Origin: an uncultured bacterium
GTDB lineage: Bacteria > Planctomycetota > Phycisphaerae > Sedimentisphaerales > Anaerobacaceae
Length of the DNA: 52,338 bases
Assembly: GCA_913009355.1 (NCBI GenBank)
Contig: CAJVYN010000001.1
Location: forward strand, 1 to 52,338
Reading direction: 5' to 3'
The position numbers and the translations under genes are program-made. The notes below the pieces were generated by a model, which did no database searches, was not told the DNA's origin, and saw nothing but the letters and a program-made list of their open reading frames with translations. This document shows, piece after piece, positions 2 to 33,335 of the stretch (within the stretch, counting starts at the first letter, position 1; each line of letters starts with the position of its first letter).

Positions 2-1558
2 GAGGTTTTCTCGCTCGCCTGGTCACTGGGCGGGGCAATCAGCGGCGAACATGCAGACGGGCTGGTAAGAGCGGCCTTCATAAAGAAGCAATACGGCGAT
101 AAATTCTACGAGTTATTATGCAAAATTAAGAACATATTCGACCCTGACGGTTTGATGAATCCAGGCAAAATCATCAATAGTGATGTTGATGTTATGGTTA
201 AGAACCTCAGGGCCGAGAGGAAGTTTTTGCCGGAAAGACTTTTTGAAAAAACGGATTTGCTTTTTGAAAAAGATGAGCTTGCCGCCGAGATTGAACAATG
301 TTACGGCTGTGGACTTTGCCGAAGCTGCGATTCTGTTCTGCGGATGTGCCCGGTGTTTCGTGCTTTAGGTGAAGAATTGGGAAGCTGCCGAGCGAAGGCA
401 AATATACTTGGTTTCTGGGCGACGGGGCAGTTGGAAAAACAGGATTTTGAATCGCCGGAGTTTAGAAAATTTCTGGATTTGTGTATTAACTGCAAAGCCT
501 GCCTGCGGGAATGTCCCTCCGGGGTTGATATTTCCAAGATTATCGTTGCAGCTCGAGCTGAATATGTCAAACGCAGAGGCTCAGCGCCCACAGAGCTGCT
601 CTTAACCCATAATCGCTATCTTAGTATGCTGGGCAGTGCCTCCTGGCCTGTTTTAAATTTTGTAATGAATCGGGCGGTTTTTAAATGGTTTCTTGAAAGA
701 ATCACAGGGCTCGACCAACGCAGGAATATACCCGGTTTCGAGTGTAAATCTTTCCTGAAAACGGGGCGTAAATTTTTAGCATCTTGTGAGCCGATAGAGA
801 AACCAATCGATAAAGTTGCGTATTTTGTAGATACTTATGCAAATTATAACGACCACGAATTAGGATTTGCGGTTCTTCGCGTACTGAGGCATAATAATAT
901 CGAGGTGATTCTGCCGAAGCAGTTGCCTGCGCCGCTGCCGGCTATTTGCTATGGCGACGTCAGTTGCGCCCGCAGGGATTTATCTTACAATGTCAAACAT
1001 CTTGCCAAGGTGATTTCCGCCGGTTTCAAAATCATTTGCTCCGAGCCGAGCGCTGCACTGTGTCTGAAGCAGGAGTTGAGGCATTTCGTCGCAAACAAAG
1101 ATGCCGAGCTTATCTCAGAAAATGTCTTTGAACTAATAAGTTATCTGCTGGATTGGTTCAAGCAGGGAAAGTTAAAGCCGGTATCGGAAAAGCTGAGATT
1201 GCTTCGTCGCTGCGCTCCTCGCAATGACACAGAGCACAACTTTGTCTATCATTGCCCCTGTCATTTACTTGCCGTTGGCAGTAACGGAGCGAGTGTAGAG
1301 CTTTTAGAAAAACTTTGCTCTGTTTCAGTCAGCGAACTTAATGCCGGCTGCTGCGGCTTAGCGGGGACATTCGGGATGCAGAAAAAAAACTACGATTTGT
1401 CGTCAAAAATTGCCGCTGGATTAAAAGAGGCACTAAAATCATCACCAACCAAATGTGTATTGACCGAATGCAGCGCCTGCAAAATGCAGATAGAACATAT
1501 AAGCGATTGCGTGGTTAGGCATCCGATTAAAGTAATAGCGGATAGTTATAGCACATAG
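2..1558 (+). CDS. FAD-linked oxidase / Fe-S oxidoreductase fusion, 3' part (5' end outside window)
   Basis: The frame is open from base 2, so the gene begins upstream; an ATG at 152 is internal. The first about 50 residues are the end of a GlcD-type FAD-linked oxidase C-terminal domain (SGEHADG, then FDPDGLMNPGKI). A ferredoxin-like domain follows, with two Cys clusters at about 299-350 and 481-516 (CINCKACLRECP). Two CCG-type segments then appear at about 1252-1360 (CPCH, GCCG) and 1467-1481 (CSACK). This is the one-chain GlcD-GlcF arrangement of 2-hydroxyacid (D-lactate, glycolate or 2-hydroxyglutarate) dehydrogenases passing electrons from FAD to Fe-S centres. The substrate cannot be read. 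A dispersed repeat is embedded in frame at 1194-1229, in the linker before the first CCG segment. Confidence 0.85.
   Translation, partial: EVFSLAWSLGGAISGEHADGLVRAAFIKKQYGDKFYELLCKIKNIFDPDGLMNPGKIINSDVDVMVKNLRAERKFLPERLFEKTDLLFEKDELAAEIEQCYGCGLCRSCDSVLRMCPVFRALGEELGSCRAKANILGFWATGQLEKQDFESPEFRKFLDLCINCKACLRECPSGVDISKIIVAARAEYVKRRGSAPTELLLTHNRYLSMLGSASWPVLNFVMNRAVFKWFLERITGLDQRRNIPGFECKSFLKTGRKFLASCEPIEKPIDKVAYFVDTYANYNDHELGFAVLRVLRHNNIEVILPKQLPAPLPAICYGDVSCARRDLSYNVKHLAKVISAGFKIICSEPSAALCLKQELRHFVANKDAELISENVFELISYLLDWFKQGKLKPVSEKLRLLRRCAPRNDTEHNFVYHCPCHLLAVGSNGASVELLEKLCSVSVSELNAGCCGLAGTFGMQKKNYDLSSKIAAGLKEALKSSPTKCVLTECSACKMQIEHISDCVVRHPIKVIADSYST
1194..1229 (+). repeat. Dispersed palindromic repeat arm inside a coding region
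   Basis: This 36-base stretch starts TGAGATTGC and ends CTCGCAATGACA, the same termini as the right half of the intergenic palindrome at 13123-13203. It is translated in frame as the linker peptide LRLLRRCAPRNDT of the Fe-S oxidoreductase. It has no stop codon in that frame, so the gene stays open. Confidence 0.75.
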
Positions 1559-3296: not shown

Positions 3297-3312
3297 TTGA
3301 TTATTGATTCTG

Positions 3313-4464
3313 ATGAAAATAATTGCAGATAGAAATATTCCGTTTGCGGCTGAATGCTTCTCTTCCATCGGCGAGGTTGAAGTTGTTGCCGGCCAGGATA
3401 TAACGCCAGGCGTTGTTGCCGACGCAGATTGTTTATTGGTTCGCAGTGTAACGAAAGTAGATTCGAATTTGTTAGCTGAAAGTTCGGTTCGGTTCGTGGG
3501 CACCGCTACTATCGGTTTTGAGCATATAGATACTGATTTTCTGGCCAGACACAATACTGGTTTTGCATCCGCGCCAGGGTCAAATGCCAACTCCGTGGTC
3601 GAATATATCGTTGCTGCGCTGCTCGAAGTCGGGCAAAAAGCAAATCTTAACCTAAAGGACAAATCGATAGGCGTTATCGGCGTTGGTAACATCGGCAGCA
3701 AAGTGGCTGAAAAAGCTGCGGCGATAGGTATGAAGGTCTGCCTCAACGACCCGCCATTGCAGCGACAAACCGGTGATGCAAAATACCTGCCTTTGGAAAA
3801 GCTTTTCGATTGCGATTTTATAACGCTTCATACGCCGTTGACCTTCGAAGGGATTGACAGAACTTTTTATTTGGCTGACGAAAGATTCTTTAAATCGCTG
3901 AAGAAAGGGTGTATCTTTTTTAATACTTCTCGCGGCGCAGTGGCTGACACAGGAGCTTTGAAGGCAATGATTAAATCAGGCAAATTGGGAGCTGCCGTAC
4001 TCGATGTCTGGGAAAATGAGCCGAGTATCGATACCGAACTTCTGGAAATGGCCGCTATCGGCACGCCGCATATAGCCGGCTATTCGCTTGACGGCAAAGT
4101 CGCAGGGATGATTATGATTTATAAGGCGGCCTGCGAATATTTCGGACTCGAAGCCGGATTTGATACGAAATCATTTTTACCTGAGCCAGCTGTCCGTGAG
4201 TTGAAGGTAAATCCGCAGACCGGCAGCGAGCAGGATATGTTGCGGGAAGCTGTTGAAAAAATTTATAATATTAAAAAAGATGACTCCAATCTACGGCGGA
4301 TTTTGAATATGCCCTTAGGCAAAAGATGCGGATTGTTTGAGAAACTGCGCAGCGATTATCCGGTCCGAAGGGAATTTCAAAATACCACGGTTGTTGTCAA
4401 AGATAAAAACAGCGGTCTGGCTAATAAGCTAAAGGGCATTGGATTCCTGCTTTCGAAGGAATGA
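3313..4464 (+). CDS. pdxB: Erythronate-4-phosphate dehydrogenase
   Basis: Second enzyme of the DXP-dependent pyridoxal-5'-phosphate pathway, oxidising 4-phosphoerythronate with NAD. The ATG at 3313 gives 383 residues beginning MKIIADRNIP, the usual PdxB start; a TTG at 3304 is a weaker alternative. The Rossmann motif GVIGVGNIG is at 120-128. Catalytic Arg207 (NTSRG), Glu236 (ENEP) and His253 (TPHIAG) fit the D-2-hydroxyacid dehydrogenase triad. The C-terminal dimerisation domain (about 290-370) separates PdxB from SerA. The last residues (GIGFLLSKE) are coded by a GGATTCCTGC..GGAATGACA repeat. The stop overlaps the folP ATG as ATGA, implying translational coupling. Confidence 0.85.
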   Translation: MKIIADRNIPFAAECFSSIGEVEVVAGQDITPGVVADADCLLVRSVTKVDSNLLAESSVRFVGTATIGFEHIDTDFLARHNTGFASAPGSNANSVVEYIVAALLEVGQKANLNLKDKSIGVIGVGNIGSKVAEKAAAIGMKVCLNDPPLQRQTGDAKYLPLEKLFDCDFITLHTPLTFEGIDRTFYLADERFFKSLKKGCIFFNTSRGAVADTGALKAMIKSGKLGAAVLDVWENEPSIDTELLEMAAIGTPHIAGYSLDGKVAGMIMIYKAACEYFGLEAGFDTKSFLPEPAVRELKVNPQTGSEQDMLREAVEKIYNIKKDDSNLRRILNMPLGKRCGLFEKLRSDYPVRREFQNTTVVVKDKNSGLANKLKGIGFLLSKE

Positions 4465-5333
4465 CAAATATGGAAAAAAGTAGCGGTGAAAATGTTGTTG
4501 AATGGCCAAAGGGAAGATTGGATTTTTCGGCTGGCTGTGTTGTGATGGGCGTTTTGAATGTTACGCTGGACTCCTTCAGCGACGGCGGCCAGTTCTTCAA
4601 TATCGACAAGGCCATTGAACACGGTCTTAAAATGGCTGCCGACGGAGCTGCGATAATAGATGTAGGAGCTGAATCCACCCGGCCGGGTGCCAGGCCTGTC
4701 TCGGTTGATGAGCAGATAAGCCGGGCAGTTCCGGTAATAAAAACGCTTCATAAAAAAATAGATGTGCCTATTAGTATTGATACTAAAACTTACGATGTCG
4801 CTAAAGCTGCTTTGGAAGCAGGGGCGGGGATGATAAACGATATTACGGCTTTGAGCGATGAGCGGATGGGAACGCTTGCAGCCGAGCATAAGGTGCCGGT
4901 CGTCCTGATGCATATGCAGGGCAGCCCTGCAACAATGCAAATCCAGCCGAAATATGATGATGTGGTTGGCGAGGTTCTTGCATTTCTTTTAGAGCGAGCA
5001 AAACGAGCTGAGGGGTTTGGTATTCCAAAGGATATGATTTTTATTGACCCCGGAATTGGTTTCGGTAAAACATTAGAGCATAATCTTTTGCTTTTGAAAA
5101 ATATTGATAAGTTTGTCGCTACCGGCTACCGTGTGCTTGTCGGCACAAGTCGTAAAAACTTTATTGGCAAACTCACCGGCAAAGAAAAACCGTCAGAACG
5201 CATATTCGGCACCGCTGCTACAGTCGCCTTATGTGCCGTCGCAGCCGTCTCAATCGTACGCGTCCACGATGTGACTGAAATGGTCGATGTAGTAAAAGTA
5301 GCAACTTCTATTGTAAATTTAAACTTAGTCTGA
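4461..5333 (+). CDS. folP: Dihydropteroate synthase
   Basis: Condenses p-aminobenzoate with 6-hydroxymethyl-dihydropterin pyrophosphate in folate synthesis; cytosolic TIM barrel. The 290 residues carry the family signatures MGVLNVTLDSFSDGG (29-43), DVGAESTRPGA (67-77), SIDTKTYDVA (106-114), NDITAL (126-131), LMHMQGSP (149-156), DPGIGFGK and GTSRKNFIG. Its ATG overlaps the pdxB stop. The last about 30 codons (5215-5300) are repeated at 5819-5904 after the DUF4160/DUF2442 pair. The tail after VVKV (ATSIVNLNLV) differs from that of the second copy. This suggests the 3' end was replaced or regenerated when the pair was inserted. Confidence 0.93.
   Translation: MTNMEKSSGENVVEWPKGRLDFSAGCVVMGVLNVTLDSFSDGGQFFNIDKAIEHGLKMAADGAAIIDVGAESTRPGARPVSVDEQISRAVPVIKTLHKKIDVPISIDTKTYDVAKAALEAGAGMINDITALSDERMGTLAAEHKVPVVLMHMQGSPATMQIQPKYDDVVGEVLAFLLERAKRAEGFGIPKDMIFIDPGIGFGKTLEHNLLLLKNIDKFVATGYRVLVGTSRKNFIGKLTGKEKPSERIFGTAATVALCAVAAVSIVRVHDVTEMVDVVKVATSIVNLNLV
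5215..5300 (+). repeat. Direct repeat copy 1: folP 3' end
   Basis: Bases 5215-5290 match 5819-5894 with four differences; similarity then fades through 5300. This copy is the functional folP 3' end. Confidence 0.85.
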
Positions 5334-5818: not shown

Positions 5819-5925
5819 CTGCAACGGTCGCCTTATGTGCCGCCGCAGACGTCTCAATCGTACGCGTCCACGATGTGACTGAAATGGTCGATGTGATAAA
5901 GGTTGTAAATGCTATCAGTATGTAA
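5819..5925 (+). pseudogene. folP: Second copy of the folP 3' end (fragment)
   Basis: About 35 codons homologous to the folP C-terminus (ATVALCAAADVSIVRVHDV, then TEMVDVIKVVNAISM and a TAA at 5923-5925), with no start codon or upstream gene body. Bases 5819-5894 differ from 5215-5290 at four sites. The tail VVNAISM looks more like a natural FolP end than the tail of the intact gene does. This may be the original 3' end displaced by the inserted DUF4160/DUF2442 cassette. Confidence 0.8.
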
Positions 5926-13021: not shown

Positions 13022-13095
13022 CAGCGACCGCTAAACAAATAACAACCATAAGTATAAAAACCAGAACAAAAGAACCATCTTGCTTCAACCACTAC

Positions 13096-13230
13096 TGCTC
13101 TGTTACTTGTAATTTGACGGGCTGTCATTGCGAGCGAAGCGAAGCAATCTCAAATCTAACGGTTGAGATTGCCACGGCCTGCTCCGCAGGCCTCGCAATG
13201 ACAACTCCTCGATTGAGCAGTAACAGAGCA
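13096..13230. repeat. Composite palindromic repeat element, MITE/REP-like
   Basis: Perfect 12-base terminal inverted repeats TGCTCTGTTACT (13096-13107) and AGTAACAGAGCA (13219-13230) flank nested inverted repeats. These are TGTCATTGCGAG (13123-13134) with CTCGCAATGACA (13192-13203), GCAATCTCAA (13144-13153) with TTGAGATTGC (13163-13172), and GGCCTGC (13176-13182) with GCAGGCC (13186-13192). It has no coding capacity. Part of it recurs inside the oxidoreductase gene at 1194-1229. Confidence 0.75.
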
Positions 13231-13321
13231 CTAATATAAACATCAGTTTTCCGCTAATCTGCCAAGGACTGATAATAATAGACTTTCATAACTAAAAATT
13301 GGGTTTCTCGATATTTTTTCC

Positions 13322-19393: not shown

Positions 19394-19774
19394 TTATACC
19401 CGTCTTCGCTTTGGCGGTCTACAGCCATTATGCGGAAGAGGCGTAACATCCTCTATCGATGCTATACGCAATCCGGCCTGCTGCAGCGCAGAAATAGCAG
19501 ATTCACGCCCTGAGCCGGGCCCGTTAACCCTAATTTCGACCTCACGCACGCCATTACGCATAGCGGCACTGGCACAACGTTGCGCCGCCTGCTGAGCGGC
19601 AAAAGGCGTACTCTTACGAGAGCCTTTGAAGCCGACACAACCTGATGAACCTGAACAAATTGTGTCGCCGTCTAAATCCGTAATCGTAATCAACGTATTG
19701 TTAAAAGTCGCTTTTATGTGCACAATAGCCTTGACGACATTTCTTCTAACTTTTCGTTTCGCACTTTTTGCCAT
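19394..19774 (-). CDS. rpsK: Ribosomal protein S11
   Basis: 126 residues with [16 protein letters not shown]-like ([10 protein letters not shown]), [17 protein letters not shown] and [18 protein letters not shown], the universal S11 C-terminus. Platform protein near the mRNA exit. Standard alpha-operon order after rpsM. Confidence 0.97.
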
Positions 19775-19812
19775 TATCTCGTATCCCGTATCTCGTATCT
19801 CGCTTCACGCTT
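19775..19812. repeat. CGTATCTCG word repeat between rpsM and rpsK
   Basis: ATCTCGTATCCCGTATCTCG and a further TATCTCGCTTCACGC fill the spacer. The same words recur at 1570-1600, 27752-27775, 31571-31600 and 48937-48970. Confidence 0.55.
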
Positions 19813-20196
19813 TTAGCGTGCTTCCTTTACGCTCTTCTTGCCCGCCACCGTTTTTCTGGGGCCTTTGCGAGTTCGTGCATTGCTTTGAGTGCACTGACCC
19901 CGAACAGGCAGTCCCCTTCTGTGCCGAAGACCTTTGTAACAGTTTATACTGCGCAGCCGAGCGATATTTTGAGCCACCTGTCTGCGAAGCTGGCCTCCCA
20001 CAATGTAATTGCGGTCGATAATCTGAGTTATCCGGCTAAGCTCGTCTTCGGTGAGTTTGTTTGCCTTCGTGTCTCCTTTAATCCTGGCCTCTTTCAAAAT
20101 CTGCTCCGAGGTATATTGCCCTATACCATTAATATAGGTCAATGAAATCCATATGGATTTGTCATTGGGAATATCGACACCAACTATACGCGGCAT
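19813..20196 (-). CDS. rpsM: Ribosomal protein S13
   Basis: 127 residues beginning [19 protein letters not shown]. It has helix-two-turn-helix and the conserved [22 protein letters not shown], followed by a basic tail contacting the P-site tRNA. Follows rpmJ as usual. Confidence 0.97.
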
Positions 20197-20268
20197 ATTA
20201 GCTCCTTTTTCAGTTCGTAGTTCGTGGTTTCCTGTCCATGAACTATGAACTCATAACTATCAACTCAA

Positions 20269-20382
20269 TTATCCCTGTCGCTGTTTGTGTCGTGGGTTTG
20301 TACAAATCACCCGCACAACACCTTTGCGACGAATAACCTTGCAATTTTCACATATACGTTTTACAGAACTTTTAACTTTCAT
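20269..20382 (-). CDS. rpmJ: Ribosomal protein L36
   Basis: A 37-residue protein [20 protein letters not shown], then [17 protein letters not shown]. The zinc ligands (Cys11, Cys14, Cys27, His32) of the C+ form are intact. It lies between infA and rpsM, its usual place. The start is fixed by the invariant N-terminus. Confidence 0.95.
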
Positions 20383-20435
20383 TCTTTCTCAACTATTTCT
20401 CATTCGCGATTCGCTCGCATACACGCGCAACTCAA

Positions 20436-20651
20436 TCAATTGCGCAGAACTATTCGGCCTCTATTCAAGTCATACGGTGACATTTCAACCGTAACGGTAT
20501 CACCCGGCAAAATTCGAATAAAATGCATTCTCATTTTGCCCGAAACATGGGCCATAATTTTGTGGCCGTTTTCCAATTCCACCTTAAACACCGCATTCGG
20601 CAAAGCATCTGTCACCTTGGCCTGTAATCTTATTGTGTCCTTCTTTACCAT
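20436..20651 (-). CDS. infA: Translation initiation factor IF-1
   Basis: 71 residues, an S1-like OB fold: [39 protein letters not shown], and the C-terminal [12 protein letters not shown]. Binds the ribosomal A site during initiation. It starts 7 bases after the map stop. Confidence 0.96.
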
Positions 20652-20657
20652 AGGCGT

Positions 20658-21437
20658 TTATTTTACAGTCAACACCTCACAACCATTTTTTATTAATGCA
20701 ATTGTATGCTCAAAATGAGCTGAGCATTTCTCGTCTTTTGTTACCACTGTCCATCCGTCTTTCAGTGTTCGCACGGCACTGCTGCCGGCATTAATCATCG
20801 GCTCCACTGCTATAACCATACCTTCAGTCAAAACAATATCATCAGCTAATAACTCATCGCTGACAAAGTTAGGTATTTTCGGCTCTTCGTGCATTTTTCT
20901 GCCAATGCCATGCCCAACAAACTCCTTCACTATCGAAAAGCCGGCCGATTCAGCATAGTTTTGCATTTCCGCAGCTATCCGGCTCCACTTAACAGACGGC
21001 ACAGCCTTTGCTATCGCTATATCGAGAACATGCTTTGTTACGTCTATCAGCCTCTGTTTATCCTCGGAAACCTCACCTATGCCAATCGTAACAGCGGCAT
21101 CTCCACAATAGCCGTCAAGGCTAACGCCGAAATCAACGCTCAGGATATCACCGCTCTTAAGTTTTACGGTCTCGGAAGGAATTCCATGAACGACCTGCTC
21201 ATTTATCGAGGCACAAATCGCACCTGGAAACGGAATCCGAGACGAGGGGCTGCGGACACCCTTAAACAAAGCCTTTGCCCCGGCATCAGCGGTCATTTGC
21301 AAAGCTACACTGTCCAGGTGAGCCGTGGTTACTCCCGGCTCTGCAATCTCTTGTAATTTTGAAAGAACATTTTCTACGACAGCGCCCGCTTTACGAATTA
21401 ACTCGATTTCTCTTCGGCTGCGAAGCGTTATAGCCAT
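20658..21437 (-). CDS. map: Methionine aminopeptidase, type I
   Basis: Removes N-terminal Met from nascent proteins. 259 residues with the pita-bread metal ligands visible: Asp in VDFGVSLDGYCGDAA (two Asp), His in GHGIGRKMHEEP, Glu in EGMVIAVEP and Glu in HFEHTIAL. Lacks the N-terminal zinc extension of type Ib. It overlaps adk by 10 bases, so it is translationally coupled. Confidence 0.95.
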   Translation of the reverse strand: MAITLRSRREIELIRKAGAVVENVLSKLQEIAEPGVTTAHLDSVALQMTADAGAKALFKGVRSPSSRIPFPGAICASINEQVVHGIPSETVKLKSGDILSVDFGVSLDGYCGDAAVTIGIGEVSEDKQRLIDVTKHVLDIAIAKAVPSVKWSRIAAEMQNYAESAGFSIVKEFVGHGIGRKMHEEPKIPNFVSDELLADDIVLTEGMVIAVEPMINAGSSAVRTLKDGWTVVTKDEKCSAHFEHTIALIKNGCEVLTVK

Positions 21438-22087
21438 AGGGCATCCAACTTCTCGAATACTAAAGCACTTACCTCGTCGGCATCCTTATTAGCATCAATG
21501 TCGTAAACCGTGCTACCGTTTTTATTCTTATAGTAATCCACCACCGGTTCTGTCTGCCGGCGGTAGGTTTTAAGCCGATTCATCACCACTTCAATACTGT
21601 CATCCGGTCTCTGAATAAGCTCAGTGCCGTCGTTATCGCATATTCCTTCAACCTTTGGCTTTAGGTTTTCAATGTGGTAAACCGCACCACATTGAGGGCA
21701 GCTTCTCCTGCCAGTCATCCTCTGGGCCACCATCTGCTCATCTATCTGAAGGTTCAAAACAACATCTATTTTTTTCTCGTCCGAAGCCTTCAACAATCTA
21801 TCAAGCTCGGCGGCCTGATGAACGGTTCTGGGAAAGCCGTCCAGTACAAAACCGGCCTCTGAAGCTTTGTTTATCGCACCAGCCATCATCCCAACTATCA
21901 CCTCATCCGGCACAAGTGCACCTGAATCCATATAACTTTGGGCTTTTTTTCCCAGTTCAGTGCCTGCAACCCTTTCCTGGCGTAAGATATCTCCGCTGGA
22001 TAGATGCAGCAAGCCATATTTGGCAACAATACGCTTACACTGGGTTCCTTTGCCCGCACCAGGAGCGCCCAACAAAACTATTCTCAT
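21428..22087 (-). CDS. adk: Adenylate kinase
   Basis: 219 residues, long-LID form. P-loop GAPGAGKGTQC is at 7-17 and DGFPRT marks the NMP-binding side. The LID carries a structural zinc site with three Cys and an Asp (RRSCPQCGAVYH, CDND), as in Bacillus enzymes. Catalyses ATP + AMP to 2 ADP. Overlaps both secY (4 bases) and map (10 bases). Confidence 0.96.
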   Translation of the reverse strand: MRIVLLGAPGAGKGTQCKRIVAKYGLLHLSSGDILRQERVAGTELGKKAQSYMDSGALVPDEVIVGMMAGAINKASEAGFVLDGFPRTVHQAAELDRLLKASDEKKIDVVLNLQIDEQMVAQRMTGRRSCPQCGAVYHIENLKPKVEGICDNDGTELIQRPDDSIEVVMNRLKTYRRQTEPVVDYYKNKNGSTVYDIDANKDADEVSALVFEKLDALWL

Positions 22088-23439
22088 CCATACGCCCCTT
22101 TTATCCTGCCGGTCTCGCTGAAACCATCATAACTGCGCATCAACAGATTAGCCTCGATTTTCTGAACCAGATCGAGGGAAACACTGACAACTATCAATAA
22201 GCCGGTACCGCCCAAAAATGTAGCTATTCGCCAATCAACTCCCAACAATATTGAAATCACCGACGGCACAACGGCAATTATAGCTAAGAATGACGCTCCA
22301 AAATAAGTGATTCTGGTCATTACCGTTTCCAAATATTCAGCGGTTCGCCGTCCGGGCCGAAGTCCCGGGATAAAGCTGCCCGAATCCCGCAGGTTTTTGG
22401 CCATTTCCTTCGGCTGGAACTGTACAGTCGTCCAAAAATAAGCGAACAGGAATATCAATAACATGTACAAAACATTGTACGTATAGGCGCCGGGGCCCAA
22501 AGCGTTTTGCAAACTATAAAGAAATCCCGATTCACTGAATCTCGGAATGTTTGCCAACCAGCCAACTATCACCGGCAGAAACATCATAAAACTCGATGCG
22601 AAGATTATCGGCATCACTCCACCGTGATTGACACGAAGCGGCAGATAGTGTCTCTGGCCACCATACATTCGACGTCCCCGCATCTGTTTTGCCTGTTGAA
22701 TCGGTATTCGGCGCTGGCCCTGGGTTATTAGTATGGCGCCTGCAACAACAAATACAAACGCTGCTATCAGAAACAATATCTTTGCCGGACCTATGGTGCC
22801 GACAGGTGCACCAACTCTAAAGTTAACATTCTGCCAAAGCATATTGACTGCCCAGGGCATTCTGGATACGATACCGGCCATAATTATCAAACTAATGCCG
22901 TTGCCTATGCCATATTCATCTATCTGCTCGCCGAGCCACATCAAGAAGACGGTGCCGGCCGTCATAGCGACAATACCCATCATTACAGCTTGAGTATGCA
23001 TGCCGGCATAGACATAAGCTCCCAACATTTTCATATACATCATCGCCTGGATGACACATATCAATACTGTCAAGTAACGTGTGTACTCCTGTATCTTTTT
23101 ATGGCCTGTTTGGCCTTCCTGTCGCAATTTTTTCAAAGCGGGAATAACCTCGCCCAACAGCATAAGAATAATCGATGCGGTAATATAAGGCATAATTCCC
23201 AGACCAAACAAACTGCTGCGGCTCAAGGTTCCACCGGTAAACATTTGCATGTATTCAGCAGCTCTGCCTAAGGGGCTATCCGTGTCTCTTGTGGCGACAG
23301 CGGCGGCTATCTTTTCCTGGTCAAAACCGGGGTTGGGGATATGGAAACCAACCCTGTATATCATCAGCAGCGCCACAGTAAAAAGAATCTTGTTACGCAA
23401 ATCCGGAATTCTGAATATATTTAATACTGTTCCAAGCAT
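22084..23439 (-). CDS. secY: Preprotein translocase subunit SecY
   Basis: Channel subunit of the SecYEG translocon. 451 residues with ten hydrophobic segments, SecY signatures GIMPYITASIILMLL and LNQYT-region equivalent HLPLRVN, and the loop PKEMAKNLRDSGSFIPGLRPG. Sits between rplO and adk, the usual spc-operon position. Confidence 0.97.
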   Translation of the reverse strand: MLGTVLNIFRIPDLRNKILFTVALLMIYRVGFHIPNPGFDQEKIAAAVATRDTDSPLGRAAEYMQMFTGGTLSRSSLFGLGIMPYITASIILMLLGEVIPALKKLRQEGQTGHKKIQEYTRYLTVLICVIQAMMYMKMLGAYVYAGMHTQAVMMGIVAMTAGTVFLMWLGEQIDEYGIGNGISLIIMAGIVSRMPWAVNMLWQNVNFRVGAPVGTIGPAKILFLIAAFVFVVAGAILITQGQRRIPIQQAKQMRGRRMYGGQRHYLPLRVNHGGVMPIIFASSFMMFLPVIVGWLANIPRFSESGFLYSLQNALGPGAYTYNVLYMLLIFLFAYFWTTVQFQPKEMAKNLRDSGSFIPGLRPGRRTAEYLETVMTRITYFGASFLAIIAVVPSVISILLGVDWRIATFLGGTGLLIVVSVSLDLVQKIEANLLMRSYDGFSETGRIKGAYG

Positions 23440-23531
23440 TTTTTCAAATCAAAAATTAAAAGCCATAACTCAAAATTTAAAACCATACGAAACTAAAAAC
23501 TGTTAAATTTAAGGTTCCACAGCTTTTCACT

Positions 23532-23981
23532 TTACGTTTTACATTTTTTCGCCGTACCACCAGAAGCCACAATCTTCTGCTCTGCGGTTTTGCTGAATTT
23601 ATGAGCTGTTATTTGCAGTCTTTTAGTCAGTTCACCATCACCAAGAATCTTAACCTTACTTTTCAGACTGTCAATCAGTCCGGCATTAGATAATTGTTCT
23701 ACTCCGATAGCGGCGCCATCATCAAATTTTTCCAATTGTGATACATTGATAATCTCATAGCGTGTAGCGAAATTATAATTACTAAAGCCACGTTTGGGCA
23801 ATCTTCTAAACAGAGGCATCTGTCCGCCCTCAAAAAGCGAATTGGAAGTCGAACCAGCCCTGCTGCCGCCACCTTTATGGCCTCGACCGCATGTTTTGCC
23901 TCGGCCGGAGCCGGAGCCTCTGCCAACACGACGTCGGCGTGCATGCTTACCTGCAATAGAAGTTACTTGCAAATTGGACAT
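23532..23981 (-). CDS. rplO: Ribosomal protein L15
   Basis: 149 residues with the Gly/Arg-rich N-terminal extension (RRRVGRGSGSGRGKTCGRGHKG) and the RRLPKRGF motif. It lies only 8 bases after rpsE; rpmD (L30), normally between them, is absent. The upstream spacer to secY has AAAATT word repeats and a CACTTTACGTTTTAC word. Confidence 0.95.
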   Translation of the reverse strand: MSNLQVTSIAGKHARRRRVGRGSGSGRGKTCGRGHKGGGSRAGSTSNSLFEGGQMPLFRRLPKRGFSNYNFATRYEIINVSQLEKFDDGAAIGVEQLSNAGLIDSLKSKVKILGDGELTKRLQITAHKFSKTAEQKIVASGGTAKKCKT

Positions 23982-23989
23982 CTAAATCA

Positions 23990-24550
23990 TCACCACCTTT
24001 TTACAGTTTCAAGTTTTACGCCACGAAGAGATTCAACCATTTCTTTGCTGCGCAATCTCAGAAGCCCGTCTAATGTAGCTTTGACAACATTTTTAGCGGA
24101 GGTACTTCCGTAAACTTTTGTAAGTACATCCTGCACACCGGCAAATTCCAGTACTGCTCGAGCGCTGGAGCCGGCGATAACGCCGGTGCCGGGACTGGCC
24201 GGTACGAGCGTTATTTTTGTAGCTCTATATCTGCCATTGATCTGATGCGGAATTGTTCGGCCGACCAAAGCTATTTTGTGCAAAGATTTTTTGGCATCTT
24301 TCACACCTTTCTCCACCGCCAGAGGGACTTCGTTGGCCTTACCATAACCAACACCCACCGTACCCGCACGGTCGCCAAGCACAACTAACGCCGCAAAACT
24401 GAACCGCCGGCCTCCTTTGACCACTTTGGAACAGCGAAACACTTTTACAACCGTATCTTCCAACGGCTTTTCTTCCTGACCAGATAATTTAACCGGTTCT
24501 GCTGTCAATTTTTCTCCAATTCCAAAAACCTTTTTTTGCCACAAAGGCAA
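23990..24550 (-). CDS. rpsE: Ribosomal protein S5
   Basis: 186 residues with the S5 double-stranded RNA-binding N-domain (VVKGGRRFSFAALVVLGD, GVGYGKANEVPLAVEKG) and the C-domain (LVPASPGTGVIAG). A roughly 30-residue N-terminal extension precedes EDTVVKVFRCSKV. Decoding-fidelity protein of the 30S. Spc-operon order. Confidence 0.96.
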   Translation of the reverse strand: MPLWQKKVFGIGEKLTAEPVKLSGQEEKPLEDTVVKVFRCSKVVKGGRRFSFAALVVLGDRAGTVGVGYGKANEVPLAVEKGVKDAKKSLHKIALVGRTIPHQINGRYRATKITLVPASPGTGVIAGSSARAVLEFAGVQDVLTKVYGSTSAKNVVKATLDGLLRLRSKEMVESLRGVKLETVKRW

Positions 24551-24618
24551 CTAAAGCTTAAATATATTTGTTTTTTTGACCTTTAATTTAGCTATCGCCG
24601 TTTCATCGCTAAATTCAA

Positions 24619-24984
24619 TTAAAACACCAGCCCGGCTTTTCTTGCCGCTTCGGCAAGAGCTTTGGCTCTGCCGTGAAACTTATAGCGGTTTCTATCAAAG
24701 CAAACACACTTAATACCAACACCAATCGCCTGTTTTGCGACTGCTTCACCCACTATTTGCGCAGCCTTTTTATCACCGCCATTGGGTAATCGGTCGCGCA
24801 TGCCTTTTGTTCTTGTGCTTGCCGAGACTAACGTTGCTCCCACAACATCATCTATAACCTGAGCGTAAATATGCCTGTTCGAGCGAAATATTGACAGTCG
24901 TGGCCTGTCCGGTGTCCCAAAAACTTTCTTTCGCACGTGATATTTACGTCTCAGCGCTGCTTTTCTTGTCCTGTTAATTCTCAA
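24619..24984 (-). CDS. rplR: Ribosomal protein L18
   Basis: 121 residues with the 5S rRNA-binding core [20 protein letters not shown] and the C-terminus [23 protein letters not shown]. The best start is an unusual TTG at 24984, lying inside a GAATTGAGAATTGAGAATT word repeat, so the spacer repeat supplies the start codon. No better in-frame start matches the family N-terminus. Confidence 0.93.
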
Positions 24985-25007
24985 TTCTCAATTCTCAATT
25001 CTTAGTG
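24981..25007. repeat. TTCTCAA tandem word repeat at the rplR start
   Basis: TCAATTCTCAATTCTCAATT is a tandem 8-base repeat spanning the rplR start codon. Confidence 0.6.
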
Positions 25008-25017
25008 TTTAGTTCTT

Positions 25018-25599
25018 TTATGCTGCTCCTGTGGCAAATGCTTTGCCGGCTTTGCGTCTTATGTGTTCGTCAGCATAACGAATACCCTTTCCCTTATAGG
25101 GTTCAGGCGGCCTTATTTTCCGTATATCGGCAGCAAACTGTCCCAGCAGAGACTTGTCTGTTGCCAAAAGCGTAAACCTGGCGGGGACTTCATTGCCTCT
25201 GGTTGCGCCCGTCCCAATATTTACCTTTATACCCTCCGGCACTACCATCTCTACCGGATGGCAAAAGCCGATTTGCAAAATCACTTTTCCGCCCTGCTCC
25301 TTGATACTATAGCCGGTGCCGTATATTTCCATTTTCTTTTCAAAACCTTTACTGACGCCGGTTACCATATTGGCAATCAAGGCACGCATTGTGCCGTGTA
25401 ACTGCCTATCCTGGCGTATTTTTGGATGCTCATTTTCAACCAATACTTTCCCTGTGGAACTGTCAACTTTTATCTTTATCCGCTGGTGACAGTCCAACTG
25501 CAAACTACCGAGCGGACCTGTCACTTTAACACACAGACCCTTCTGCTCGACCTTTACCCCTTCAGGGATAATAATTGGTTTTTTTCCGATACGACTCAT
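25018..25599 (-). CDS. rplF: Ribosomal protein L6
   Basis: 193 residues from the ATG at 25599, which begins MSRIGKKPIIIPEGV as in the family; a start five codons upstream is not needed. Two L6 repeats are present, with GTMRALIANMVTGVSKGFEK and RKIRPPEPYKGKGIRYADE. The start overlaps the rpsH stop as TAATG, so the genes are translationally coupled. Confidence 0.95.
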   Translation of the reverse strand: MSRIGKKPIIIPEGVKVEQKGLCVKVTGPLGSLQLDCHQRIKIKVDSSTGKVLVENEHPKIRQDRQLHGTMRALIANMVTGVSKGFEKKMEIYGTGYSIKEQGGKVILQIGFCHPVEMVVPEGIKVNIGTGATRGNEVPARFTLLATDKSLLGQFAADIRKIRPPEPYKGKGIRYADEHIRRKAGKAFATGAA

Positions 25600-25997
25600 T
25601 AACTCACCGTACAAAGTATTTCGCCGCCGACATTGGCCTGGCGACAGTTTTTATCACTCATCACACCCTTGCTTGTCGAAACGATTGCTATACCGTAACC
25701 GGCTAAAACATGCGGCAACTGGTCAACAGGCAAATAGATTCTTCTGCCTGGTTTACTCGTTCTTGTTACTTCGCTAATAACAGGTTTACCATCCTGGTCG
25801 TATTTTAGAGTAACTCTTAGTATTCCCTGGTTGCCGTCATCGATTCGGTCAAAATCTTCGATGTAACCTTCCTTTTTTAAAACAGTCGCTATGCCCTCAC
25901 AGATCTTCGATGCTTTAATATTGACCTGCTCTCTATTTATTCGCACAGCGTTGCGAATTCTCGTCAGCATATCAGCGATTGGGTCGCTCAAACTCAT
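25599..25997 (-). CDS. rpsH: Ribosomal protein S8
   Basis: 132 residues: SDPIADMLTRIRNA at the N-terminus and GVMSDKNCRQANVGGEILCTVS at the C-terminus (STSKGVMSD is diagnostic). 16S central-domain binder and, in other bacteria, the spc-operon repressor. Shares one base with rplF. Confidence 0.97.
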   Translation of the reverse strand: MSLSDPIADMLTRIRNAVRINREQVNIKASKICEGIATVLKKEGYIEDFDRIDDGNQGILRVTLKYDQDGKPVISEVTRTSKPGRRIYLPVDQLPHVLAGYGIAIVSTSKGVMSDKNCRQANVGGEILCTVS

Positions 25998-26061
25998 ATT
26001 CGTACCTCATATTTCGTACATCATATATCGCATTTCTTTTAACGATATACGCACGGCAAGT

Positions 26062-26247
26062 CTACCAACTGGCTTTTTTCACTCCTGGAATTTTTCCTTC
26101 GTTGGCTAACGTTCTAAAGCAAATCCGGCAAACTTTGAACTTGCGATAAACAGCCCTGGCTCTTCCACAAAGCTGGCAACGCCTATATTGCCTAACGCGA
26201 AACTTTTGTTTCTTTTCTGCCTTGTTTTCCAGCGCTGTAGTTGACAT
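26062..26247 (-). CDS. rpsN: Ribosomal protein S14, zinc-binding short form
   Basis: 61 residues from the ATG at 26247, chosen because TTGGAG lies 7 bases upstream; a longer start at 26265 would read through that site. The zinc knuckle CQLC..CRIC and the ending [10 protein letters not shown] identify the type Z form. Confidence 0.94.
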
Positions 26248-26295
26248 CCACACACTCCAAATCAATTAACTATCGATTATTTTCTATCCACTCTC

Positions 26296-26313
26296 CGTAG
26301 TAAGACTACTACG
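26296..26313. repeat. Hairpin in rplE-rpsN spacer
   Basis: CGTAGTA (26296-26302) and TACTACG (26307-26313) form a perfect 7-bp stem with a 4-base loop, flanked by ATTGATTATT words. Confidence 0.5.
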
Positions 26314-26348
26314 AAGGATAAATTGATTATTCTTAGCAGTTTTTCCAA

Positions 26349-26906
26349 TTATTCATTATCCGGTTTTGGCTTCTTAAACGGCATACCAAAGAGAGTTAAC
26401 ATCTCCCTTGCTTCCTCATCAGTATTTGCGGTTGTCACAAAGGTTATGTTCATACCTTGCTGAAACTCAATCTTCGCGGGGTTGATTTCCGGAAAAACAC
26501 TCTGCTCAATTAGTCCCATCGAGTAATTGCCTCTACCGTCAAAACTGTTTGGGTCAAGACCTCGAAAATCTCTTACCCTCGGAATTGCAAGACTAATAAG
26601 CCTATCCATAAATTCATACATTCGCACGCCGCGGACAGTAACTTTCAGACCGGTTTCATCGCCCTGACGAACTTTGAAATTCGAAACGCTTTTTTTGGCT
26701 TTACAGACAACCGGCGCCTGTCCTGTAATCATCATCAGGTCCTTTTTAGCCAGTTCCAGAAATTTTTTATCCTGCGCTGCTTTGCCCACACCCATAGAGA
26801 CAATGACCTTCTCCATCCGCGGCACAGCCATAGGATTCTTATACTCAAACTCCTTGGTCAATTCCGGAACTATCTTAGACTTATATACATCTTTCAAACG
26901 TGTCAT
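26349..26906 (-). CDS. rplE: Ribosomal protein L5
   Basis: 185 residues starting MTRLKDVYKSKIVPEL, with NPMAVPRMEKVIVSMGVG, RDFRGLDPNSFDGRGNYSMG and a C-terminal TTANTDEEAREMLTLFGMPF. Binds 5S rRNA and touches the P-site tRNA. Order rplX-rplE-rpsN is canonical. Confidence 0.97.
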   Translation of the reverse strand: MTRLKDVYKSKIVPELTKEFEYKNPMAVPRMEKVIVSMGVGKAAQDKKFLELAKKDLMMITGQAPVVCKAKKSVSNFKVRQGDETGLKVTVRGVRMYEFMDRLISLAIPRVRDFRGLDPNSFDGRGNYSMGLIEQSVFPEINPAKIEFQQGMNITFVTTANTDEEAREMLTLFGMPFKKPKPDNE

Positions 26907-26939
26907 ATCTCATATATCGTATCTCGAACGAGACACACC

Positions 26940-27281
26940 TCACACTTCACTTTTCACTTTTCTGACAACACCAATTTCGGTATTGTCAACGGCAACTCGC
27001 CTTTTGCTCCCATCCTCATTTAGCTGATAACGAACCCTACTGCCTCTCGAGCTTTTCGGATTTACCGGCAGCACATTACTTATATGTATCGGCTGTTCAA
27101 CACTGATGCGGCCTCCCTGAGGATTTCTGCGTGAAGGCCGAACGTGTTTTTTTGCTATATTGTGTCCCTGAACCATTACCTTATTCTTTTCAGGATAGAC
27201 ATGCAGCACTCTGCCGGTAGCACCTTTATGGTCACCAGCTATAATCTCAACCATATCACCTTTTTTTATATGTAGAGCCAT
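26940..27281 (-). CDS. rplX: Ribosomal protein L24
   Basis: 113 residues with the KOW motif (KKGDMVEIIAGDHKGATGRV) and NIAKKHVRPSRRNPQGGR. Assembly-initiator protein of the 50S. Preceded by a strong 15-bp hairpin in the spacer to rplN. Confidence 0.96.
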   Translation of the reverse strand: MALHIKKGDMVEIIAGDHKGATGRVLHVYPEKNKVMVQGHNIAKKHVRPSRRNPQGGRISVEQPIHISNVLPVNPKSSRGSRVRYQLNEDGSKRRVAVDNTEIGVVRKVKSEV

Positions 27282-27310
27282 CTTTCAATCTCGTATTGCG
27301 TATATCGTAT

Positions 27311-27351
27311 TGCGTGATGCGTATTTCTCCTCACGCAATACGCATCACGCA
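27311..27351. repeat. 15-bp perfect hairpin in rplN-rplX spacer
   Basis: TGCGTGATGCGTATT (27311-27325) and AATACGCATCACGCA (27337-27351) form a perfect stem with an 11-base loop. The arms consist of GCGTAT/ACGCA words. There is no U-run after it on the transcribed strand, so it is not a standard terminator. Confidence 0.75.
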
Positions 27352-27364
27352 CGACGCACAACGT

Positions 27365-27751
27365 TTACACTACTTCACTTGCCAACGAAATAATTTTCAT
27401 ATAATTTTTTTCACGAAGTTCGCGGGCAACCGCACCGAAAATTCTTGTTCCTATGGGATTACCATCGCCATCAATCATCACAGCAGCATTACTATCGAAC
27501 CTCACATAACTACCATCAGGACGTTTCACAGGACTTTTAGTGCGGATAATAACGCACTTGTGCACCTTCTTGTCGTCCAGTTGGCAGGTCGGCAATGATT
27601 TCTTTATAGCAACACAAACAATGTCTCCTACCGACGCTACAGGACGGGTCTTCTTACCGCGGGCTCCGCCTCTTCCAAGAACCTTAATACATAACGCCGA
27701 CTTGACACCTGAGTTGTCAGCTATATCCAACATTGTTTCCTGCTGAATCAT
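27365..27751 (-). CDS. rplN: Ribosomal protein L14
   Basis: 128 residues starting [18 protein letters not shown], with [13 protein letters not shown], the family signature near [17 protein letters not shown], and the [21 protein letters not shown]-terminus. First gene of the spc group. Confidence 0.97.
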
Positions 27752-27821
27752 TTTCGTATCTCGTATCTGGTTTCATTCTTTTTGCGAATGAACCCTGGTT
27801 TCATGCTCGGCGTGTGGCGAT

Positions 27822-28064
27822 TCACGCTTCCTGCTGAACAGCCTTTTCTACAACTCTTACAAGACGCCAACTTTTGGTTTTGCTATAAGGCCTGCACTGG
27901 GCAACTTCAACAACATCACCGACACCACAACTGTTATGCTCATCATGGACACCAAGCTTCGTTCTGCGTTTTACGTATTTACCGTATTTCGGGTGCTTGA
28001 CCTTGAAGTCAATAGCAACTTTAATGCTTTTATCACCGCTTCGGCTTATCACCACACCAGTCAT
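27822..28064 (-). CDS. rpsQ: Ribosomal protein S17
   Basis: 80 residues from the ATG at 28064 ([19 protein letters not shown]). The OB-fold continues through [19 protein letters not shown] and the [16 protein letters not shown]-terminus. A longer frame from 28151 would add 29 residues coded by spacer words (TTTGCAGTTTGCAGTTT on the plus strand); these match no S17 N-terminus, so I prefer the short form. Confidence 0.92.
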
Positions 28065-28193
28065 AGTTTTGAGTTTGCAGTTTGCAGTTTCGAGTTCTTG
28101 GTTCTGCATCTTCGATTTCCAATCGTCAATCTCGCAAAAACTAAAAGCCAAAAGTCATGCTTTAAAATTTAAAACCTGATTCAACTTTAAGTT

Positions 28194-28397
28194 TTACGCT
28201 ATAGTTTTATGTTTTTCGCTTTCCCGCATTACCGTTTTAATCCTGGCGATATCGCGTCTGACATTAGTTACGGCCTTGGAATTCTCCAGTTTTTCCGTAA
28301 CCGCCTGCGAGTGCAAATCGAACAAATGCCTCTGGATTTCTTCCAGTTTACTCTCAAGCTCATCAGGACTCATCTCACGGTAATGCTGCGCTTTCAT
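28194..28397 (-). CDS. rpmC: Ribosomal protein L29
   Basis: 67 residues from the ATG at 28397 (MKAQHYREMSPDELESKLEE), with AGAGGA about 11 bases upstream; the TTG two codons earlier is less likely. Two-helix coiled hairpin near the exit tunnel with VRRDIARIKTVMRE. Confidence 0.94.
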   Translation of the reverse strand: MKAQHYREMSPDELESKLEEIQRHLFDLHSQAVTEKLENSKAVTNVRRDIARIKTVMRESEKHKTIA

Positions 28398-28507
28398 TAT
28401 CAAGCTTTCCTCTTCTTTGCCACAAAGTCACTAAGATTTTATCATATTTATTTTTTTAACTCTTATCTTTTTTTATGACTTCGTGTCCCTGTGGCCGAAA
28501 TTCCTTA

Positions 28508-28927
28508 CTACAATGAATGTCTTCGCTTAACAAACCTGCACCTAATCGGCATTTTATGAGCGACCCTGACCAACGCCTGCTTTGCCACATCCTCACTTAC
28601 ACCGCCAATCTCGAAGCAAACCTGTCCGGGTCGAACTCTGGCAACCCAAAATTCTGGCTCACCCTTGCCTTTTCCCATTCGCGTTTCCAACGGCTTGGCA
28701 CTTACCGGCTTGTGTGGAAACAGCCTAAGATAGACTTTGCCTTCACGATGCAAAAAATGAGTCGCTGCAACTCGACCCGCCTCAATGTGCCTGGCGGTAA
28801 TCCAGCTACCTTCCAAGGCCTGCAGCCCATACTCGCCAAACGCTACGAAATTGCTTCGGCAGGCATTGCCCTTCATTCTGCCGCGCTGGCTCTTGCGGTG
28901 CTTAACTCTTTTTGGCATCATTGCCAT
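28508..28927 (-). CDS. rplP: Ribosomal protein L16
   Basis: 139 residues: [37 protein letters not shown] and [24 protein letters not shown]. Organises the A-site tRNA region of the 50S. Starts at 28921 or 28918 are also possible within MAMMPKR. Confidence 0.96.
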
Positions 28928-28960
28928 TTGTTCAGACCTTTACAAATTGATTATTGCTTA

Positions 28961-29770
28961 CTAATTATCCGGTTTCTCAACATTCTCTGCTGTTTCTGTG
29001 GTCAATGTTTTCTCGGTCTTGACGGCATTTTTACGGCCTTGTACCGGTGCAGCTTTAGGCCTGTTACCACCCCGCGGATTTACGCCGCGCCTTGGCGGAC
29101 GATGCCGGCGAACCTGCCTCGGCTCAATTTCTTCGCCGAATTTGCCTTTATAAATCCAAACTTTAACGCCAATCGCTCCGTATGTTGTCCTAGCTGTTGC
29201 ACATGCGTAATCTACATTAGCATCCAGGGTATGCAGCGGGATACTGCCAAGCTTCTGCGTTTCCTTACGTGCCATTTCTGAGCCTGCCAACCGTCCGCTG
29301 CAGATAATCTTAACTCCTTTAGCACCGGCGTTCATTGCCGATTCGCAATGCTGCTTCATTGCACGCCTGAATGAAGCACGTTTACATAGCTGCTCGGCAA
29401 TTGCTTCGGCTACCAAAGCAGCATTCAGGTCAGGCTCTTTTATCTCGATAACATTGACGCTCACCTTTCGCCCTGTCATATCCTCAAGCTCTTCCCGCAA
29501 CCTATCGACTTCACCACCTCTGGGGCCAATAACTATGCCGGGCCGAGCACTATGCAGTGTTACTTTTACCTCGTTGCGTGTTCGGATCACTTCAACCTTT
29601 GCCACCGCCCCTTTGGGCATTTGACGGTTGTGTTTCTTGTCAACATACCTGCGAATTTTCTGATCCTCGACAAGAAAATCACCGTAGTCGGCCTTGGGAG
29701 CAAACCAAGTGCTTTGCCATCCAAGCGTTATTCCTGTTCTAAAACCTATTGGTGATACTTTCTGACCCAT
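28961..29770 (-). CDS. rpsC: Ribosomal protein S3
   Basis: 269 residues from the ATG at 29770 (MGQKVSPIGFRTGITLGWQS), the invariant S3 start. An in-frame extension to 29818 is spacer word repeat (GTCGCTCATCGCTCGTCGCT) and is rejected. The KH domain shows RPGIVIGPRGGEVDRLRE; the C-domain has GAKGVKIICSGRLAG. An Arg/Pro/Thr-rich tail of about 50 residues extends beyond the usual length. Confidence 0.95.
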   Translation of the reverse strand: MGQKVSPIGFRTGITLGWQSTWFAPKADYGDFLVEDQKIRRYVDKKHNRQMPKGAVAKVEVIRTRNEVKVTLHSARPGIVIGPRGGEVDRLREELEDMTGRKVSVNVIEIKEPDLNAALVAEAIAEQLCKRASFRRAMKQHCESAMNAGAKGVKIICSGRLAGSEMARKETQKLGSIPLHTLDANVDYACATARTTYGAIGVKVWIYKGKFGEEIEPRQVRRHRPPRRGVNPRGGNRPKAAPVQGRKNAVKTEKTLTTETAENVEKPDN

Positions 29771-29828
29771 AATTTCGTCGCTCATCGCTCGTCGCTCGTG
29801 TCTCGGATTGCGAGGCACAGCTCACGAG

Positions 29829-30377
29829 TCACACTTCTGTTACTGTTATATGTATATGGCAGGCCTTTTTGCGAATAGGGTGGGCTCTGCCTCTGTCTTT
29901 TGGTATCCATCTTTTGGTACCAATACGTATTCCCGCATCGTCAACACGTGCTTCACTGACATAAAGATTATCCACATCAGCCTGCTGCTCATCGGCATCT
30001 GCGACGGCACTTTTTAGAACCTTATCAATCATTGTTGCAGCACGTTTTCTTGTGAACTTCAATATATCCATTGCGTCCTGGACACTTCGGCCGGCTATTA
30101 ATCTCGCAACCAATCTGGCCTTGCTGGCTGAACCTGGAGCATAGCGATAAGACGAATGCCAGTCGAGCAAGTCATTTACATCAGCAGATAAGGCAGTCGC
30201 CAGACGCCGAACATCTTCTCTGTGCGGTATGGGCGTAAACAGGCCTTTCTGCCAGTTTTTAACGGCGGCAACTGCTTCTTTTCTATTCAGATTCCCTCTG
30301 ACAAGTTGGCCGGCCAACTGCTCTATACTCATCTGTCGCTGTTCGCAAAGCCGTTTTAATTTATTAGCGCTTAACAT
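29829..30377 (-). CDS. rplV: Ribosomal protein L22 with an extra N-terminal HTH-like domain
   Basis: 182 residues against a usual 110-120. The L22 core occupies about 73-182 (SKARLVARLIAGRSVQDAMD, ILKFTRKRAATMIDKVLKSA, DNLYVSEARVD, KDRGRAHPIRKKACHI). Residues 1-72 look like a Cro/XRE-type helix-turn-helix: LKRLCEQRQMSIEQLAGQL, a recognition-helix-like KEAVAAVKNWQKG, then HREDVRRLATALSADVNDLL. No Met start lies close before the core, and the frame is uninterrupted in a gap otherwise only 41 bases from rpsS. The extension is therefore probably translated. It could bind rRNA or DNA, or regulate its own operon; this is inference. Confidence 0.9.
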   Translation of the reverse strand: MLSANKLKRLCEQRQMSIEQLAGQLVRGNLNRKEAVAAVKNWQKGLFTPIPHREDVRRLATALSADVNDLLDWHSSYRYAPGSASKARLVARLIAGRSVQDAMDILKFTRKRAATMIDKVLKSAVADADEQQADVDNLYVSEARVDDAGIRIGTKRWIPKDRGRAHPIRKKACHIHITVTEV

Positions 30378-30418
30378 ATCTTGTAAATGGATTTATGCGT
30401 TACTCATACACGTATTTA

Positions 30419-30688
30419 CTATCTTATTTTCTTGCTTGAATGACCCTTAAAAGTCCGTGTCGGCGAAAACTCGCCCAGCTTATGTCCAACCATATCCTCG
30501 GTAACAAAAACCTTATGAAACATTTTGCCGTTATGAACCATAAAGGTAAAACCCACAAACTCGGGAATTATCGTACACCTTCTTGCCCAGGTTTTTATCG
30601 GCTCACGGGTGCCGGCTTCAACCTGCCTGTTGACCTTGATAAACAACTTCTCGTCAACATAAGGCCCTTTTTTAAGAGATCTTCCCAT
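30419..30688 (-). CDS. rpsS: Ribosomal protein S19
   Basis: 89 residues starting [15 protein letters not shown], with [20 protein letters not shown] and [20 protein letters not shown]. 30S head protein. S10-operon order. Confidence 0.97.
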
Positions 30689-30718
30689 AATTCTTATCTC
30701 GTATTTAGCTTTACACTT

Positions 30719-31570: not shown

Positions 31571-31607
31571 AATTCGTATCTCGTATTTCGTATCTCGCTT
31601 CAGGTTC
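31571..31607. repeat. CGTATCTCGTATTTCG word repeat between rplW and rplB
   Basis: ATTCGTATCTCGTATTTCGT followed by ATCTCGCTTC fills almost the whole spacer. Confidence 0.55.
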
Positions 31608-31886: not shown

Positions 31887-31931
31887 AAGTTATAGCCGTC
31901 CACAAGTTATAGCTGCCCACAAGTTTTTAAT
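31881..31931. repeat. Three tandem 17-base repeats over the rplW start codon
   Basis: GTCCACAAGTTATAGCC (31881-31897), GTCCACAAGTTATAGCT (31898-31914) and a degenerate third unit (31915-31931). On the transcribed strand each includes ACTTGTGG, so the GTG initiation site of rplW is triplicated in three different frames. Confidence 0.75.
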
Positions 31932-31939
31932 CGGACCTG

Positions 31940-32590: not shown

Positions 32591-32633
32591 ATCTCGTTGT
32601 TCGTGTCCCGTCTCCAGTAACTCGGGGCACGGG

Positions 32634-33281: not shown

Positions 33282-33335
33282 TATTTCATTCCTCGTCGCT
33301 CGTGCCCCGCTCACTCGAGTCACGGGGGCACCAAG

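Follow-up and report, generated by a model that had tools for sequence, protein, structure and literature searches.

The window (the whole 52,338-nucleotide stretch of DNA that was analysed) opens within a gene for an FAD-binding and Fe-S oxidoreductase, the 5' end of which is lost at the contig start. The remaining frame encodes the C-terminal 518 residues of the protein, in which Pfam recognizes the end of FAD-oxidase_C, Fer4 and CCG. The NCBIfam GlpC model gives 274 bits, just below its cut-off of 278. Homologues in related genomes have open frames mostly of about 960-1000 aa, and a fold search placed the oxidoreductase next to structures of EtfD, LutA-LutB and heterodisulfide reductase, as expected of CCG proteins. 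The features discussed here are the following.

2..1558, + strand: 3' part of the FAD-binding/Fe-S oxidoreductase gene (FAD-oxidase_C end, Fer4, CCG)
1172..1243, + strand: linker region, residues about 391-414, which holds different repeats in different relatives
1194..1229, + strand: 36-nt half-unit of the TGTCATTGCGAG...GCAATCTCA repeat, in-frame reading (L)RLLRRCAPRND(T)
1244..1492, + strand: CCG cysteine-rich domain, residues 415-497 (Pfam match)
13093..13233, no strand assigned: larger imperfect inverted repeat around 13123-13203, with CTCTGTTAC / GTAACAGAG ends
13123..13203, no strand assigned: copy of the repeat between genes, composed of a 30-nt and a 40-nt half in inverted orientation

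The 36-nt element at 1194-1229, TGAGATTGCTTCGTCGCTGCGCTCCTCGCAATGACA, overlaps residues 398-410 in the open frame 2-1558 (518 aa). The initial annotation had proposed an in-frame repeat at this point, ahead of the CCG domain, and this is borne out by the codons, which read K-L-R-L-L-R-R-C-A-P-R-N-D-T, and by the CCG match from residue 415. The peptide that the element adds to the linker is RLLRRCAPRND. An intergenic copy in another locus of the same genome (L083) is identical at 36/36 positions, with unrelated flanks. An AlphaFold2 model of the window protein, built from 39 sequences, has a mean pLDDT of 82.7 and a pTM of 0.82. It places the insert between helix 378-387, the last of the central domain, and strand 413-416, the first of the CCG domain. 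Across the insert, the pLDDT in ten-residue blocks falls from 97 to 70 and 48 before returning to 85, and residues 402-410 are below 50. The insert-bearing stretch is thus predicted to be a flexible loop joining two confident parts.

Within the window alone, the 10-mer TCATTGCGAG with one mismatch was found 3 times against 4.07 expected, which is not above chance, and the whole genome was therefore needed. The 2,474,233-base assembly (G000) contains 89 exact copies of TGTCATTGCGAG, 48 forward and 41 reverse, against 0 in the reversed control, in agreement with the earlier description of the repeat as dispersed. The 34-nt core of the in-gene element, at up to three mismatches, occurs at 11 places versus 0 in the reversed sequence. 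An inverted partner lies within 110 nt of 40 of the 89 TGTCATTGCGAG arms, and the GTAACAGAG/CTCTGTTAC ends of a larger composite are close to 22 of them. The family is modular, with TGTCATTGCGAG followed by a variable inner part and then by GCAATCTCA; the outer pairing is ATTGC/GCAAT around a long variable inner part, and TGTC precedes ATTGCGAG in the searched arms, which were found with that motif. The intergenic palindrome reported at 13123-13203 is present there. It is of the type with GTAACAGAG/CTCTGTTAC composite ends and lies between what we take to be a carbamoyl-phosphate synthase small-subunit gene on one side and a divergent regulator on the other. Copies within genes are rare in G000: when the arms were classified by frame, 14 of 89 fell in frames of 100 aa or more, the oxidoreductase copy being the only one in a frame longer than 230 aa. 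Rfam searches over the window returned tRNAs only. The family is scattered unevenly across Planctomycetota, being present in 10 of 119 sampled genomes including that of the window.

Other repeats were also seen in the window. At 4438-4465, ATTGGATTCCTGCTTTCGAAGGAATGAC, which is like the GCGGGAATGAC repeat described below, lies exactly at a gene junction: it supplies the last residues and the stop codon of the ORF 3304-4464 and extends over the first ATG (4461) of the ORF that follows. A repeat-like stretch, GATCCTTCGCTTCGCTCAGAATGATAA, is found between two ORFs at 2207-2245, and quasi-tandem TCGTATCTCGTATCTCG motifs (direct-repeat families D1-D3 and D17) occur at several places in 19768-33311. 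Two 97-base direct copies, 89% alike, occupy 5215-5311 and 5819-5915; the former is presumably the 3' end of a dihydropteroate synthase-like gene, and the latter is a partial duplicate of the gene end, lying downstream.

The oxidoreductase was found in 54 of the 61 genomes searched. Between fixed flanking residues, 56 of 78 homologous loci have a linker region of exactly 40 residues. One locus (L166) was dropped from the linker alignment because one half of the query was missing, and another (G035_L161), which is in two frames and misaligns, was kept in the denominator of 78 and not scored as 40. In the window the region is 52 residues long, and the additional 12 residues correspond to 36 nt, or one element. 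A homologue from the same genus (G001) is empty, with 40 residues, and an insertion, exact in length, on the branch leading to the window's genome would be the simplest reading of this difference. Neither of the two outcomes that the initial annotation named as counting against it was found: the added residues are absent from homologues that lack the repeat, including this same-genus copy, which is 85% identical, and many other copies of the repeat exist in the genome.

The linkers of three other genomes (G012, G072 and G081) are also occupied by the window's family, read in the same frame. Congeners with empty linkers are G070 and also G033 with G080. In the linker of G072 (L105), RLLRRCAPRND is followed by nine more residues, GRKDATRND, which resemble a second partial repeat. 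In G047, and in L261 and L278 of a second data set, the window's family is read in another frame (KIAA...GLAMT). The linkers of G016 and G009 contain a perfect hairpin with GGGCTAAA after it, translated as PHVKRGAKY; G009 has another, related hairpin behind it. Two hairpins, read GILPANRGRDALDT, are present in G018, and a GCGGGAATGAC repeat, read IDSRLRGNDT, in G037, which belongs to another family of the order. One linker in related Planctomycetota has therefore taken up four or more palindromic families that are unrelated to one another: the window's (in two frames), the hairpin-GGGCTAAA, the GILPANRGRDALDT double hairpin and the GCGGGAATGAC repeat. The earlier observation is confirmed and its reading supported, but the phenomenon is larger, as the linker is a repeated landing place for several unrelated repeats.

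These families are dispersed in the genomes that carry them. Counts of GTCATTGCGAG were 96 in G000, 233 in G081, 84 in G072, 14 in G047 and 7 in G012, with at most 3 per strand in reversed controls of 16 genomes. CGTGGGGCTAAA occurs 25 times in G016 and 40 times in G009, AGGGCGAGACGCCCTCG 10 times in G018 and not in 9 other genomes, and ATTCCCGCNTNCGCGGGAATGAC 13 times in G037 and 5 times in G000. Of the linkers filled by these families, the counts cover those of the genomes just named. Seven more inserts (in G027, G096, G059, G025, G085, G104 and L260) were judged repeat-like by eye or by hairpin shape; CGTGGGGCTAAA was counted in G027, G059, G096 and G104, with 0 in each. The linker inserts are not all repeats, and longer linkers of other make occur in the outer families of the order (L273, L274, L276, L277 and L282).

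Among 81 distinct full-length homologues (502 core columns), inserts of at least 4 aa are confined to residues 391-410 of the window protein, except for one row at 364 and two at 481. The row at 364 is L049, from G018 with its double hairpin in the linker, which has a second insertion, SASSARNHGLE, after that residue. The rows at 481, the only other recurrent insertion site in the protein, come from two related genomes (L244 and L247), in which 15 residues (CSTPALGRDPSQPRA / CSTPALGGDSSQPGA) are inserted.

Copies in frame were also found in other genes. In G016, 6 of 23 examined hairpin copies (of 25) lie in frames of at least 300 aa; the hairpin is open in three of six frames, and all six copies are read in one frame only, as PHVKRGAKY or a near form. 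One of the six hosts is the oxidoreductase, and Pfam and PDB comparisons identify three more: a HemL (glutamate-1-semialdehyde aminomutase) with 43 residues where a solved homologue has 4, a MurE ligase with the hairpin repeat between its middle and C-terminal domains, and a TilS that has it behind the TilS substrate-binding domain. The remaining two hosts gave a sub-threshold DUF4139 match only (L296) and no match (L301). Of the 40 copies in G009, 22 were examined and a single one was in a frame of 300 aa or more; the in-gene share of hairpin copies thus varies widely between the two genomes, which counts against the general reading given below. G081 has 42 half-units of the window's family; of the 30 examined, 3 were in frames longer than 400 aa, all read RL(L/P)RR.APRND. 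The three hosts are the oxidoreductase linker, a glycosyltransferase (L326), for which phmmer against PDB sequences gave no match at 1e-20, and a long frame (L351) that carries the copy near its start and may not be translated. In the window's own genome, a RecG-like helicase frame (L063, contig C42, frame 1-1263) contains CGTGACTCGTGTCCCGTGCC...ACGAGCGACGAG, read RDSCPVPRDSSDERRATSDD, between its DEAD and Helicase_C matches. Motifs similar to this quasi-tandem stretch of L063 recur in the window.

The hairpin-GGGCTAAA family is associated with a candidate mobilizing enzyme. In 3 of 33 Y1_Tnp loci (L063 of G000, and L190 and L202 of G016), a gene of 154-157 aa is tightly flanked by inverted hairpin-GGGCTAAA repeats, and one L190 hairpin is the same 25-mer as the linker insert of G016. 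The best NCBIfam match of these genes is the REP-associated tyrosine transposase, below cut-off, with Pfam Y1_Tnp at or over cut-off. Judged from this arrangement, a RAYT-like enzyme likely moves the hairpin-GGGCTAAA family. Neither GTCATTGCGAG nor its complement occurs in any of the 33 loci (0/33), and no transposase was found beside the window's family there. There is about an even chance that several unrelated palindromic families, one or more of which would be driven by a RAYT-like enzyme, write peptides into the linkers of core enzymes genome-wide in this planctomycete order, the HemL-, MurE-, TilS- and RecG-like proteins, the glycosyltransferase and the oxidoreductase being the cases in point.

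Selfish palindromic repeats very probably insert widely in these genomes and persist within genes where they are open in frame and the linker is tolerant. Several unrelated families would have spread through these planctomycete genomes, most copies surviving between genes. A minority would survive within genes, namely copies that read through without a stop in the host frame, preserve that frame and fall in a surface linker. In the window, the 36-nt half-unit would have entered in frame in the loop between helix 378-387 of the central domain and strand 413-416 of the CCG domain, and the oxidoreductase probably remains active with it. A tolerant linker would then be filled independently in several lineages. 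Insertion, dispersal and empty sites are observed, as are several families at one site and their concentration in the linker. We infer that selection for tolerance, and not choice of target, makes the hot spot.

A single ancient linker insertion, inherited and lost many times or recombined between genera, could also leave the same linker filled in several genera, but is unlikely. On a tree of 81 proteins with the linker removed, no fewer than 3 state changes are needed for the same-frame insert of the window's family and no fewer than 11 for repeat-like inserts of any kind (14 rows by our naming). One clade for the four same-frame rows was rejected (AU p 0.00016). Between same-frame lineages, the element DNA is identical at 32-35 of 36 positions and third positions of flanking codons agree at only 0.40-0.55, so that near-identical elements sit in diverged flanks. 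In addition, the reading frames differ (RLLRR.APRND in f1, KIAA...GLAMT in f2), as do the entry points within the linker, and for the site as a whole the four different families oppose one origin. In favour of common descent, the f2 inserts of G047, L261 and L278 are identical at 34-35 of 39 positions, with third positions at 0.60-0.67, and appear to be one older inherited insert that has aged with the gene. The inserts of G012, G072 and G081 have similar left-flank residues, PxExxxKE, and so may go back to a single event or have travelled by recombination; the independent f1 events for the window's family would then be two, not three.

Repeated use of one place would also follow if the linker DNA were a preferred target of the mobilizing enzymes, so that insertion and not selection made the hot spot. 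This is very unlikely, as the entry codon varies among families that differ in their ends, from the one right after KLK to one about eight codons further on, no shared target was seen among the linker entry points, and the same repeats occur at unrelated places in other genes. That the peptide itself is useful and selected for its sequence is highly improbable. The f2 insert has been kept over a long term, but unrelated peptides occupy the same place, 56 of 78 loci show no change in length and the insert is predicted to be flexible. An assembly or binning artefact deserves almost no credence. The assembly of 315 contigs does include one contig with Illumina adapter-like sequence (AGATCGGAAGAGCACACGTCTGAACTCCAGTCAC, at about 1915-1950 of L010, near 24630 of contig C7), which we take to be an assembly flaw, but the frame of the oxidoreductase is intact and the same kind of insert is found at the same place in several other assemblies. 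Passive insertion with retention in a tolerant linker remains the preferred reading; the working is most likely passive, and the hot spot would lie in the tolerance of the protein and not evidently in the DNA.

If palindromic families do write peptides into linkers genome-wide in this order, it would be a Rickettsia counterpart outside the alphaproteobacteria, with one linker filling independently in genus after genus. With the linker filled in some and empty in others of dozens of relatives, with several insert families and with a control within the protein, the case is a natural experiment, and it also supplies enzymes that do and do not carry inserts. In the open literature searched, the matches listed included none on this linker or on the window's repeat, and those for the DNA 10-mer and the translated peptides were unrelated papers only.

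Rickettsia palindromic elements (RPEs; Ogata et al. 2000, 2002) lie inside protein genes, and intragenic in-frame repeats are known from Rickettsia and other REP-bearing bacteria, according to PMC10969869, PMC2229807 and PMC3733652. The likeness to RPEs drawn in the initial annotation holds in the sense of working alike. In both cases dispersed palindromes sit in frame in otherwise normal genes, with several families per genome and the used frame open, and the window's family, itself a dispersed palindrome, has a copy in frame in a gene that lacks it in homologues. In contrast, the half-unit here is 36 nt, whereas RPEs measure 105-146 bp according to PMC2229807, the hosts are planctomycetes and one linker takes several unrelated families across genera. 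The CGTC-tagged repeats, as described in PMC3733652, are similar in the tag at one end (CGTC or a TGTC/CCTC variant, here TGTC), a stem starting with AT, some copies within genes and the lack of a dedicated flanking transposase, none having been found here beside the window's family in 33 Y1_Tnp loci. Their stem of 8-9 bp and loop of 4-5 bases (PMC3733652) differ from the window's family, in which 5 pairs form the outer stem, the inner part is unequal and the loop is long and variable. The five phyla listed for CGTC repeats in the results of PMC3733652 do not include Planctomycetes.

The inverted hairpin-GGGCTAAA pairs around the Y1_Tnp/RAYT-like genes of L063, L190 and L202 recall the REP/REPtron arrangement outlined in PMC3733652. 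However, the tag read outward is TTTAG and not the GTAG given there for REPs (PMC3733652), and the locus proteins fall under the NCBIfam RAYT cut-off. A precedent for the shared site is recB, where different REPs are found at about the same place in X. campestris and X. oryzae (section 15 of PMC3733652). That case concerns two species, whereas at least four families, more lineages, counted empty sites and a rest-of-protein control are available here. What the present analysis contributes is a single planctomycete linker at which several families are recorded across several genera and empty sites have been counted, together with core enzymes of a relative that carry inserts of this sort.
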